A stretch of 64,000 bases of DNA. Source: Bacilli bacterium (GTDB taxonomy: Bacteria; Bacillota_I; Bacilli_A; RF39; UBA660). The DNA lies in NCBI GenBank assembly GCA_017553685.1, contig JAFZKH010000001.1, positions 1 to 64,000 of the forward strand, read 5' to 3'. Numbering within the stretch: position 1 is the stretch's first letter; each line of letters begins with the position of its first letter. The notes under the pieces are model-generated. The model was not told the DNA's origin, searched no databases, and saw nothing but the letters and a program-made list of their open reading frames with translations. Of the stretch, positions 40,236-44,163 are shown in pieces. The translations under genes were made by a program, and so were the position numbers.

Positions 40236-42200
40236 ATGAAAAAGATTAGTAAAATAATTATGACTTTAATTATTGTTTTTTCTATGTTTACGCCTGCTAT
40301 AAATAGTATTCAAGCATTAGATACTACATATACTTATGCTTATATAGATGCTACTGATTTAAGTGTTAGAGAAGGTCCTGGTACAAATTATGCCAGAATA
40401 AAACACGATGAAGGTAGAGATATTTATCTTGATAGACCAAGAGCAGTAGAAGTAATAGGTACTTCAGGAGAATGGTCAAAAATTAGATTTAATTATTGGG
40501 GATTTACTTATGAAGGATATGTTTATACTAGATATTTAGGTTCTAAGTATACTCATACAATAGATCAAAACTATGCTAATACATTAAGGGCAAAAGGATT
40601 CCCAGAATCATATGTTGAAAAGTTCGTTAAATTACATGCTCAACATCCAAATTGGAACTTTGAAGTATCTAAAACTAATATGACTTTAGATCAAGCAGTA
40701 GATGGTGAATATTCACCAATTAATAAGAATTTAATTAGTACATCTAATAAATCACAATTATCTACTGATCCAGGAGCATATTCAAATGGAGTATATACTC
40801 AATTTGAACCTGGTTGGTATGCACCAAATAAAGCAACATTAAAATATTATCTGGATCCAAGAAATTTCTTAGATGATAATTCTATATTTATGTTTGAACA
40901 ATTATCATTTAGTGAAACTCAAAATGCTAATGTTGTTCAAAATATATTAAATGGTTCATTTATGTCAGGCACATATGAATATAATGGTACTCAAAAATCA
41001 TATGCTGAGACATTTGTTGAAGCAGGTAGAACTTATGGAGTAAGTCCTGTTCATTTAGCTGCTAGAGTATTACAAGAACAAGGTAATAAGGGATCTGCTA
41101 CTACTGAGATGGATGGTGGAGACGGAAAGAAATATTATAACTACTTTAACTTTGGAGCATCTGGTTCTACACTAAAACAAATAGTAGCAGGAGCTCTTAG
41201 TTATGCTAAAAATAGAAACTGGGATAGTCCTTATGCTTCTATTATGGGAGGAGCTTCTGGTATTGCTAATGGTTATATAACTAGTGGTCAAGATACTATA
41301 TTCTATGAAAAATTTAATTTAGTAGGATCTTCAGTTTATTGGCATCAATATATGGCTAATATTCAAGCACCATATAAAGAAAGTTATACAACTTATACTT
41401 CATATTGGAAAGCAGGTTTAATGGATTTACAATTTACATTTAAAATACCTGTATATTCTGATATGGGTGCAGGTACAGTTATTCCTACAAAGAGTAATAA
41501 TGCTAATTTAAAGAGTTTAACTACAAATACAGGTAATTTATATCCAGCATTTGATTCATCAATTACAGAATATACACTTGAAGTATCTAGTAAAACTACT
41601 AGTGTAACTATTAATGCTGAAAAAGATCATGATAAAGCAAAAGTAGAAGGAACTGGCAGTGTTAATTTAACTTCTGATGAAGTATCTAAAGAAATAAAAG
41701 TAACAGCTGAAGATGGTACTGAAAAGAAATATACTATAACTATTAAGAGAAAAAAATCTAATGAAGAAACAGTAGAAGATGTATTAACATTCTCTGGATA
41801 TAATACTAATGAAAATAACATATCTGGAATTAATATAGGTTCATCAATTACTTATATTATTAATAATATAAATGCTAATTCTTCATCACCAATTGTAAAA
41901 ATATATGATGCATCAAATCATGAAATAACTAGTGGTGTTATGTCTACTGGTCAAAAATTATCTATTACTGTTAATGGAGAAGAAAAAACATATGATGTAA
42001 TTATATATGGTGATACTAATGGTGATGGAAAAATAAGTGCACAAGATTTTGCAAAAGTAAAATCACATTTACTTGGTGCAACATTATTAACAGGTGATTA
42101 TTTAAAAGCATCTGATACTAATCATGATAATAAAATAAGTGCACAAGACTTTGCTAAAATAAAATCACATTTATTAGGTGCTAGTCAATTACAACAATAG
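40236..42200 (+). CDS. Secreted glucosaminidase with SH3 and dockerin domains
   Basis: This 654-residue secreted peptidoglycan hydrolase has a signal peptide (1-28), an SH3-like domain (about 30-105, 'LSVREGPGTNYARI'), an N-acetylglucosaminidase domain (about 210-400) with the likely catalytic Glu in 'ARVLQEQGNKG', a cadherin-like beta-sandwich (about 422-507) and a C-terminal type I dockerin (about 590-654). The dockerin has two calcium loops, 'DTNGDGKISAQDFAKVKSHLLG' (split as DTNGDGKIS and DFAKVKSHLLG) and 'DTNHDNKISAQDFAKIK'. Dockerins bind cohesins; the next gene encodes a possible partner. ATG 40236 has GAGGTG upstream; GTG 40227 overlaps that site. Confidence 0.88.
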   Translation: MKKISKIIMTLIIVFSMFTPAINSIQALDTTYTYAYIDATDLSVREGPGTNYARIKHDEGRDIYLDRPRAVEVIGTSGEWSKIRFNYWGFTYEGYVYTRYLGSKYTHTIDQNYANTLRAKGFPESYVEKFVKLHAQHPNWNFEVSKTNMTLDQAVDGEYSPINKNLISTSNKSQLSTDPGAYSNGVYTQFEPGWYAPNKATLKYYLDPRNFLDDNSIFMFEQLSFSETQNANVVQNILNGSFMSGTYEYNGTQKSYAETFVEAGRTYGVSPVHLAARVLQEQGNKGSATTEMDGGDGKKYYNYFNFGASGSTLKQIVAGALSYAKNRNWDSPYASIMGGASGIANGYITSGQDTIFYEKFNLVGSSVYWHQYMANIQAPYKESYTTYTSYWKAGLMDLQFTFKIPVYSDMGAGTVIPTKSNNANLKSLTTNTGNLYPAFDSSITEYTLEVSSKTTSVTINAEKDHDKAKVEGTGSVNLTSDEVSKEIKVTAEDGTEKKYTITIKRKKSNEETVEDVLTFSGYNTNENNISGINIGSSITYIINNINANSSSPIVKIYDASNHEITSGVMSTGQKLSITVNGEEKTYDVIIYGDTNGDGKISAQDFAKVKSHLLGATLLTGDYLKASDTNHDNKISAQDFAKIKSHLLGASQLQQ

Positions 42201-42209
42201 GAGGAATAT

Positions 42210-43898
42210 ATGAAGAAAATAAAATATTTATTAATATCATTATTACTACTTATTCCATTTAATATTAAAGCTGCATCAGTACATTGTTCTGCACCTGCAA
42301 CTGCTGTTTCAGGAACAACATTTACTGTTAAGTTTTATGGTTCACTTGGAGGAGCAGGTGGTATCTGGTTTGGTAAGATAGGTTCTGAAGGTAATGCTTC
42401 ATTTGTAAGTGGTAACCTTTCTTTTGGAGGAGAAGAAACACAAAATTTCTCTAGAACTGTTACTTATAAAGCAGGGAATCCTGGTAGTGCTAAATTCTAT
42501 GCATATGATGTAGATGCTGCATCAGATACAGAAGAAATAAGCTCTAGTGATACTTGTATAGTTACTATAGTAGCTGCTACTTCAAATAACTCAAATAATA
42601 ATAGTGGTAAAAAGAATACTACAAATAATAATACTAGAAAAGATCCAAGTAAGAGTAATAACACTTACTTAAAATCTTTAAATATACCTGATACTGAAAT
42701 TACTCCAGAGTTTAATAAGGATACTTTAGAGTATAGTACTACAGTAGAAGGTAATATAGAAAAGATTAATATTGAAGGTGAAGCAGAAGATGGTAAAGCC
42801 TTTGTAGAAGGCCTAGGAGAAAAAGAACTTCAAGAAGGATTAAATGAGTTTTATATTTATGTAACTGCTGAAAATGGAGATGTAAAAGAATATAAACTAA
42901 TTGTTACAAGAAAAGAAAAAAATCCAATAATAGTTACTATTGATGGTAAAAAATACACAGTTATGAAAAAAGAAACTGATATGGAATTACCTGAAGGTTA
43001 TGAAAAAGAAACTATAACTATTAATGAAGAAGAAGTAATAGTTTATACAAATGATAAAGTAGGTAGAACTTTAGTAGTTCTAGTAGATGAAGAAAATAAT
43101 AAAGGTTTCTTTATCTATGATAGTAAAAAAGATACTTATACTGAATTTAAAGAATTTGAATCTAAGAGTTTAAAAATACTATTAGTAGAAAATCCAGGAG
43201 AAGATATTCCTTTTGGATATAAGAGAATTACTTTTACTATTAATGGTCAAAAAGTTAATGGTTATTATTATAAAACTAAAGATAAATTTAGATTAGTATA
43301 TGGTGTTAATTTAGAAACTGGAGATGAAGGTTTCTATCAATATGATATGAAACAAAAGACTTTCCAAAGATATTATGGTAATCAATTAAAAGATTATGTT
43401 AAATATGGTAAGTATGCAGTATACTGTGCTGGTGGTCTTATTTTACTTGTATTAATCTTATTTATTTCTACTATTTCTTTATTAGTTAAGAATAAGAAAT
43501 TAAAGAAGAATGGTGTTCCTGCAAAAGAAGAAAAATCTAAAAAAGTAGAAAAGAAAGAAGAAGTAAAAGAAGAAACTAAATTTTTAACTAGAGCAGAACG
43601 TTTAAAATTAAAAGAAGAAGCTGCTAGAGAACTTGCTAGAAAAGAAGAACCCGATGAAGAAATAATGGAGCCTTCTAAAAGAGAACTAAAGAAACAAGCA
43701 AAAGAAAAGAAAAAAGAAGAAAAAAGATTAGCAAAAGAAGCTAAGCTTAAAGAAAAAGAATCTCTTAAAGAAGAACCAAAAGAATCTAAGAAAGAAGTCC
43801 CTGATAAAACAGAAGAATTAGATAGAAAAGAATTAAAAAGACTTCAAAAAGAAAAAGAGAGAAAACTTAAAGAAGAAGCAGATGAATTCTTAAGATAA
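42210..43898 (+). CDS. Membrane-anchored protein with cohesin-like and cadherin-like domains
   Basis: This 562-residue protein has a signal peptide (1-21), then a beta-rich domain of about 100 residues (22-125) whose opening 'ATAVSGTTFTVKFYGSLGGAGGIW' (read as ATAVSGTTFTVKF and SLGGAGGIW) resembles cohesin/Ig-like folds. A short Asn/Lys linker, a cadherin-like beta-sandwich (148-232), an unknown extracellular region (240-395), one membrane helix (about 405-427) and a strongly charged cytoplasmic tail (430-562, Lys/Glu-rich, predicted coiled) follow. The gene lies 9 bases after the dockerin-bearing glucosaminidase and shares its transcript, so it may be the enzyme's surface receptor. The cohesin call is tentative. 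Confidence 0.65.
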   Translation: MKKIKYLLISLLLLIPFNIKAASVHCSAPATAVSGTTFTVKFYGSLGGAGGIWFGKIGSEGNASFVSGNLSFGGEETQNFSRTVTYKAGNPGSAKFYAYDVDAASDTEEISSSDTCIVTIVAATSNNSNNNSGKKNTTNNNTRKDPSKSNNTYLKSLNIPDTEITPEFNKDTLEYSTTVEGNIEKINIEGEAEDGKAFVEGLGEKELQEGLNEFYIYVTAENGDVKEYKLIVTRKEKNPIIVTIDGKKYTVMKKETDMELPEGYEKETITINEEEVIVYTNDKVGRTLVVLVDEENNKGFFIYDSKKDTYTEFKEFESKSLKILLVENPGEDIPFGYKRITFTINGQKVNGYYYKTKDKFRLVYGVNLETGDEGFYQYDMKQKTFQRYYGNQLKDYVKYGKYAVYCAGGLILLVLILFISTISLLVKNKKLKKNGVPAKEEKSKKVEKKEEVKEETKFLTRAERLKLKEEAARELARKEEPDEEIMEPSKRELKKQAKEKKKEEKRLAKEAKLKEKESLKEEPKESKKEVPDKTEELDRKELKRLQKEKERKLKEEADEFLR

Positions 43899-43943: not shown

Positions 43944-43949
43944 TAGTTA

Positions 43950-44163
43950 AACAAGCGATGATAAGGACATAGTAATATATACCTGTTTTATAGAGAGTTA
44001 ACATTTGGTGGAAGTTAATAAATGTATGATATATGAATTCACCCTTTAAGCTTATAAGTAATGTTATACGTGAATTCGCGTTAAGAATTAAAGAGCATAG
44101 ATATCTATGAAGTAAGGTGGTACCGCTATTATTAGTCCTTACATCATAGATTTTTATTTTTTT
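43950..44163 (+). ncRNA. T-box riboswitch, Phe (specifier TTC)
   Basis: A tRNA-sensing leader. Stem I shows AGAGAGTTAA and the apical TTTGGTGG. The specifier region reads GAA-TTC-acc-CTTTAAG with TTC (Phe) at 44038-44040. The T-box AAGGTGGTACCGC is at 44114-44126 and the terminator pairs 44105-44117 with 44137-44149, followed by a T tract. The codon matches pheS and pheT downstream. From 44074 on it is nearly identical to the Leu leader. Confidence 0.93.

Follow-up and report, generated by a model that had tools for sequence, protein, structure and literature searches.

The question raised by this locus is why an enzyme that cuts peptidoglycan should end in a dockerin, and whether the membrane protein encoded immediately downstream is what that dockerin binds. 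The locus lies on a 64,000-nucleotide stretch (the window: positions 1 to 64,000 of the forward strand of contig JAFZKH010000001.1, assembly GCA_017553685.1) from a Bacilli bacterium of the RF39 lineage, and consists of two open reading frames (ORFs): ORF1, a SagB-like glucosaminidase with a C-terminal type I dockerin, and ORF2, a membrane-anchored protein whose N-terminal domain (NTD) we describe below as cohesin-like. An earlier note, made from the DNA letters alone, had proposed that the two form a receptor-ligand pair. Because the types of the dockerin (the plug) and of the NTD (the candidate socket) change together across about 100 species, the enzyme is very probably locked to the membrane.

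Distribution of the pair and covariation of its two ends

The ORF1-ORF2 arrangement is widespread. ORF2 has a match in 157 of 193 genomes of the bacterial family to which the source genome belongs (148 genera sampled), the weaker matches spanning the cadherin-like domain only. The 110 ORF2 loci examined represent about 100 genera; at 106 of them an ORF1 homologue lies directly upstream on the same strand, and at 105 that homologue carries a C-terminal dockerin. The related loci were found with the ORF1 glucosaminidase alignment as the query, the ORF2 alignment being too little conserved. Dockerins are present in 147 of the 193 family genomes, and in at least 59 the sole dockerin of the genome adjoins ORF2; five Clostridia likewise have one dockerin per genome. 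Outside the family, Roseburia inulinivorans DSM 16841 (L135) has the pair, its dockerin being encoded out of frame at the ORF1 end; the pair is also present in other Lachnospiraceae and in one record labelled Oscillospiraceae. Since the pair is present at nearly all family loci and beyond the family, this hydrolase carries a dockerin as a rule and the pair is near-universal in the family, although the earlier note had called such a dockerin unusual.

The dockerin and the NTD vary together to a degree seen with no other domain of the two proteins. Among 93 ORF1-ORF2 pairs with complete segments, dockerin distances correlate with NTD distances at r 0.66 (0 of 999 permutations as high), and the partial correlation is still 0.63 once the enzyme domain, the ORF1 cadherin-like domain and the rest of ORF2 are removed. 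The corresponding values are far lower for the dockerin and its own enzyme domain (r 0.175, partial 0.04), for the dockerin and the adjacent ORF1 cadherin-like domain (r 0.16, partial 0.035), and for the NTD and the rest of ORF2 (r 0.25, partial 0.10). The signal holds when permutation is confined within 5, 10, 20 or 30 backbone clusters (0 of 999 each, null maxima 0.28-0.53). Subtypes agree in the same way: adjusted mutual information (AMI) is 0.69-0.80 for dockerin and NTD vs. 0.09-0.27 for either of them with other domains. Among close relatives, the NTD type changes in 13 of 20 cases in which the dockerin switches vs. 2 of 46 in which it does not (Fisher p 3e-7); and in L010, the window's relative of the same genus, dockerin and NTD share a nearest neighbour, L018, that belongs to another genus.

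The dockerin and the NTD are encoded by neighbouring DNA stretches whose history differs from that of the remaining ORF1 and ORF2, as would be expected if contiguous dockerin-NTD DNA had been transferred horizontally as a unit and the two domains covaried without touching each other. The ORF2 signal peptide, however, is encoded between them and correlates with either at r 0.16 only, and simple linkage is therefore not supported as the cause; nor is the signal shared by the cadherin-like domain just upstream of the dockerin. The dockerin itself also speaks against joint transfer, because its two repeats are nearly identical at the recognition positions, which needs selection or conversion. We consider this explanation very improbable.

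That internal symmetry is pronounced: the recognition positions of the two repeats show 80% identity within one protein vs. 36.5% between proteins (0 of 2000 shuffles), with within-protein identities of 83-99% at positions 10, 11, 13, 14, 17, 18, 20 and 21. In clostridial cellulosomes such symmetry allows two binding orientations, yet the non-cellulosomal dockerins by which C. thermocellum brings single enzymes to its surface are reported to be single-binding (PMC5429695). By analogy with the former, the ORF1 dockerin may have two equivalent, interchangeable binding orientations.

Three genomes that have no glucosaminidase neighbour provide a natural exchange of the enzyme. In these (L203, L204 and L205) the ORF2 homologue abuts an M6-type peptidase (PF05547; assigned by Pfam for L203 and L205, and by an HEFGH motif seen in L204) that also ends in a dockerin. 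The dockerin of the peptidase belongs to the DYVxIKNxIM type, and it is accompanied by NTDs of the short types that are paired with it in glucosaminidase pairs. Because the matching types stay together when the peptidase replaces the glucosaminidase, the socket appears from these sequences to follow the plug, not the enzyme.

The N-terminal domain of ORF2 as a probable dockerin socket

The earlier note had judged the first mature domain of ORF2 to be cohesin- or Ig-like, and comparison with orthologues bears out the former. Of the 110 NTDs in the orthologous set, 52 match the Pfam cohesin family PF00963 with E no higher than 0.01 (best E 4.6e-10), and 34 ORF2 loci exceed its curated cut-off in the genome search. 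In a search of the PDB with a profile of all NTDs, cellulosomal cohesins came first (3l8q, E 3.3e-6; 6kg8; 6kgc), and antibody chains appeared from 1.5e-4, partly via the signal peptide. In profile-profile comparison, the window NTD with its closest relative matches the main cohesin-type NTD set over its full length (95.5%, E 1.4e-8), and that set in turn matches the three Pfam-level cohesins that the source genome encodes besides the ORF2 NTD (97.6%, E 4e-12); control comparisons of the cadherin-like domain and ectodomain with the window and orthologue NTD sets gave 1.4% or less. The two-sequence window profile compared directly with the source genome's three cohesins was not significant (about 2-3%), so that the tie of the window NTD to cohesins runs through its orthologues. 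On this basis we regard the NTD as a divergent, shortened cohesin-like domain, homologous to cohesins.

Structure prediction is compatible with this assignment but does not decide it. The AlphaFold2 model of the NTD is a beta-sandwich with confidence (pLDDT) mostly of 70-97, and for the longer model the top fold matches are C. perfringens cohesins (2vo8 and 2w1n, Z 10.3, root-mean-square deviation 2.8-3.0, 103 residues aligned), with 2jh2 also among the best and cohesin matches overall at Z 10.1-10.3. The prediction thus did not yield an unrelated sandwich, the outcome that the earlier note had named as contrary to its proposal; the modelled fold is compatible with a cohesin, and for this NTD a fold search by itself does not tell cohesins from other sandwiches.

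Several observations weigh against a dockerin socket in ORF2. The window NTD (residues 22-121) has no match of its own in a Pfam search that included PF00963, which is why we call it cohesin-like and not a Pfam cohesin, and it is about 100 amino acids (aa) long vs. the 139 positions of the Pfam cohesin model. Other sandwiches come within 1 Z of the cohesins for the longer model, and for the shorter model cohesins (Z 8.3-8.5) fall below several other sandwiches. AlphaFold2 predictions of the pair, run on chains fused by reading the ORF1 stop TAG as Gln (ORF1 and ORF2 being in one reading frame), gave no confident placement of the domains (predicted TM scores, pTM, of 0.52 and 0.54), although both folded well; the alignments behind these predictions were shallow and mostly unpaired, drawn only from window sequences and the related loci fetched. 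Finally, at 11 Clostridial loci the ORF2-like protein has a cohesin-like NTD and the GH73 enzyme of the adjoining gene has no dockerin, 10 of the 11 genomes hold no dockerin anywhere, and one member of the family itself (L088/G066) has also lost the ORF1 dockerin.

The Clostridial loci (L187, L189, L196, L197 and seven more) would amount to an orphan socket; among ten of their NTDs scanned, one lies above the Pfam cohesin cut-off and four more match weakly. Because these Clostridia keep a cohesin-like NTD in genomes lacking a dockerin, the domain can persist without a dockerin ligand, and it may have another role, or one that came first. A cohesin-related sandwich whose main job lies elsewhere, for example with the wall or a third protein, would fit these genomes; the dockerin of ORF1 would then be an add-on or be bound by other cohesins, for which the source genome's three Pfam-level cohesins offer alternative partners, and the low-confidence placement in the fused chain (pTM 0.54) would fit as well. 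This explanation does not sit easily with the dockerin-NTD covariation, which is specific and far exceeds that with any other domain; with the retention of matching types when the enzyme is exchanged for the M6 peptidase; or with the genomes, at least 59, in which only ORF1 carries a dockerin. We therefore consider it improbable, though less so than joint transfer, and likely instead that enzyme and membrane socket are dedicated to each other, the dockerin being captured by the cohesin-like NTD of ORF2. The proposed receptor-ligand pair is thus strongly, if indirectly, supported by covariation and by cohesin homology via the orthologues; the binding itself would be direct and calcium-dependent.

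Proposed mechanism and relation to known systems

Our results suggest the following sequence of events: the glucosaminidase would be exported; its C-terminal dockerin would plug into the N-terminal cohesin-like domain of single-pass ORF2; the enzyme would thereby be held at the outer face of the membrane; and the held enzyme would trim peptidoglycan glycan strands. The last step is modelled on S. aureus, where the membrane protein SpdC acts as a scaffold for SagB and glycan strands are thereby cut to physiological length (PMC10581084). As in the SagB-SpdC (LyrA) system, a SagB-like glucosaminidase and, as we propose, a membrane-protein holder are involved; SpdC, however, is a CAAX-protease homologue and needs no dockerin to hold its enzyme; ORF2, by contrast, spans the membrane once and would offer an extracellular cohesin-like socket. 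Neither Pfam nor NCBIfam detects a CAAX-protease (SpdC-type) domain in ORF2, which has one apparent membrane segment. We do not claim that ORF1-ORF2 belongs to the SagB-SpdC complex; a similar way of working is possible, and a strand-trimming role like that of SagB, achieved with a different connector, is a suggestion by analogy that we hold with rather less than even confidence. With SpdC as the first, the pair may be nature's second means of tethering a strand-cutting glucosaminidase at the membrane.

The components resemble those of the cellulosomal and cell-surface type I pairs of Clostridium, Acetivibrio and Ruminococcus, in which an enzyme likewise bears a symmetric two-repeat dockerin and the surface-anchored partner is of cohesin fold, as the ORF2 NTD may be (PMC5429695). 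The present pair differs from these in several respects: one enzyme faces one cohesin-like domain, with no carbohydrate-binding module and no multi-cohesin scaffold; the enzyme cuts peptidoglycan instead of plant fibre; the anchor is a membrane segment; and in about half of the orthologues the cohesin-like domain is too divergent for the Pfam model to recognize. ORF2 itself lacks scaffoldin features, having one cohesin-like and one cadherin-like domain and no carbohydrate-binding match in Pfam. Non-cellulosomal cohesins are also those of the C. perfringens cohesin/dockerin glycoside hydrolases, whose modules 2vo8, 2w1n and 2jh2 are the best fold matches of the longer NTD model; as cited in PMC5429695, C. 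perfringens has a two-protein complex, but there the cohesin is on the hydrolase, whereas here it is on a membrane protein encoded beside the gene of its proposed ligand. The Limousia mucinolysome is likewise a use of cohesins and dockerins by gut bacteria away from cellulose (PMC12997984); it is, however, a multi-enzyme mucin-digesting complex with sortase-anchored scaffoldins, whereas in the present system one plug and one socket would serve an enzyme that acts on the bacterium's own wall.

In the open-access literature, subscription papers not being covered, we found nothing that joins dockerins with RF39, and the open-access papers that combine dockerin, cohesin and glucosaminidase or autolysin concern other systems, as judged by title and abstract. 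The parts are thus of known kinds, and what we did not find in the open-access literature is the variant: one-to-one anchoring of a peptidoglycan enzyme, near-universal in a family of small-genome gut bacteria, by partners whose types diversify together. Cohesin-dockerin pairs have been known chiefly for holding fibre-digesting complexes together; in this large family of gut bacteria with tiny genomes they appear as near-universal core equipment, used on the bacterium's own wall enzyme. About 100 natural cognate pairs of several types, with a measurable recognition code, make the evolution of cohesin-dockerin specificity directly testable, and the pairs could serve as orthogonal protein connectors for engineering.

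It is tempting to extend this to the whole group. The small-genome gut Bacilli of this family, together with scattered Clostridia, may have replaced an SpdC-type membrane scaffold of the strand-cutting glucosaminidase with a one-to-one cohesin-dockerin lock that diversified into several mutually exclusive specificities, with several pairs possible per genome, in which the enzyme, a giant adhesin and further proteins would each use a plug type of their own; we put this forward as a tentative scenario, a shade less secure than the strand-trimming role.

The source genome (950 kb in 9 contigs, 94.7% complete) encodes two dockerins above the cut-off besides that of ORF1, as a search for further dockerins of the kind suggested in the earlier note revealed; of the three, that of ORF1 scores best. 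A second tandem pair is found at L198:268-7988 (contig C7:1-9000): its first gene encodes an 1846-aa protein with 12 cadherin-like domains and two terminal dockerin-like repeats (GEIRINDVV) below the Pfam cut-off, and 14 bases downstream lies the gene of a PF00963 protein (37.8 bits in the genome search) with four cadherin-like domains and a membrane segment. At L199:5795-9727 (contig C1) is encoded a 1310-aa secreted protein of metallo-beta-lactamase fold that carries choline-binding-type repeats and, at its C-terminus, a dockerin of a different type (GTIDIIDYIRIMKDIM). At L200:3-15806 (contig C2) an open frame of about 7100 aa at the contig end encodes a giant repetitive surface protein with a terminal dockerin; the neighbouring gene, which may encode a cohesin, falls outside the contig. 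The dockerin motifs of the latter two proteins are unlike that of ORF1. Because the four plugs of the source genome differ in their recognition residues, their sequences suggest separate sockets for them.

Features of the two genes and their surroundings

The features of the locus are collected in the table. The ORF1 stop and the ORF2 start are 9 bases apart (42200 and 42210), as the earlier note had read them, and both ORFs are on the same strand and in the same reading frame; since the AGGAGG of ORF2 overlaps the ORF1 stop codon, the two genes are predicted to form a tight operon.

Table. Features of the ORF1-ORF2 locus, in window positions.
Feature	Position	Strand	Details
ORF1, secreted SagB-like (GH73-type) glucosaminidase with C-terminal type I dockerin	40236..42200	+	ATG start, 654 aa
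SH3_3 domain of ORF1, weak, residues 70-101	40443..40538	+	Pfam E 0.0013, below cut-off
Glucosaminidase domain of ORF1, residues 187-377	40794..41366	+	NCBIfam SagB model, E 7.6e-17
Cadherin-like beta-sandwich PF12733 of ORF1, residues 425-506	41508..41753	+	Pfam E 3.4e-9
Type I dockerin PF00404 (Dockerin_1) of ORF1, residues 591-647	42006..42176	+	E 4e-13
Ribosome-binding site AGGAGG of ORF2	42199..42204	+	overlaps ORF1 stop TAG (42198-42200)
ORF2, membrane-anchored partner protein	42210..43898	+	562 aa
Signal peptide of ORF2, residues 1-21	42210..42272	+	by eye; Ala21 nearly invariant in orthologues
NTD of ORF2, divergent shortened cohesin-like domain, candidate dockerin socket, residues 22-121	42273..42572	+	
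Cadherin-like beta-sandwich PF12733 of ORF2, residues 163-235	42696..42914	+	Pfam E 1.5e-5
Conserved beta-rich ectodomain of ORF2, residues 239-395	42924..43394	+	well modelled, common to orthologues
Single transmembrane segment of ORF2, ~residues 402-424	43413..43481	+	by eye
Lys/Glu-rich cytosolic tail of ORF2, residues 425-562	43482..43895	+	sequence

ORF1 starts with a signal peptide, and Glu281 (41076-41078) in the QExG motif of its glucosaminidase domain is invariant in a 21-row alignment. Its score of 61.4 bits misses the curated cut-off of 425 for true SagB (NCBIfam NF052642); as judged from the sequence, ORF1 is a relative of SagB, not SagB itself. The best named relatives are gut metagenome-assembled genomes labelled Bacilli or Tenericutes. 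The clear two-loop dockerin described in the earlier note is far above chance: it scores 49.8 bits vs. a cut-off of 22.9, covers positions 1-57 of the 57 of the Pfam model, and consists of two nearly identical calcium-loop-plus-helix repeats with conserved recognition residues (GKISAQDFAKVKSHLLG and NKISAQDFAKIKSHLLG); its model resembles solved dockerins (8x39, Z 13.0; 2vn6, Z 10.1, 41% identity).

In ORF2, the membrane anchor and the cadherin-like sandwich of the same type as in the enzyme, both named in the earlier note, are found again as one apparent membrane segment and as PF12733 in both ORFs; the ectodomain matched no Pfam family. A phage origin of ORF2 is unsupported, there being one weak partial match only. 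The earlier note had also thought that the charged tail may signal or tether inside, and a sensor that reports enzyme binding inward would make use of such a tail, which in the window is strongly charged and about 140 residues long. Tails of orthologues, however, range from almost nothing to that length, and many (e.g. L012, L022, L028, L030 and L037) have almost none after the membrane segment; because the tail is not a conserved part of the protein, signalling by it is unsupported, and of the alternatives considered here we rate the sensor the least probable, with very little chance of being right. Downstream of ORF2, a T-box leader (Rfam RF00230, 120 bits) lies at 43949-44143 of the window and is followed by a metallo-hydrolase-like ORF (44175) and then by pheS-like (44823) and pheT-like (45872) genes.

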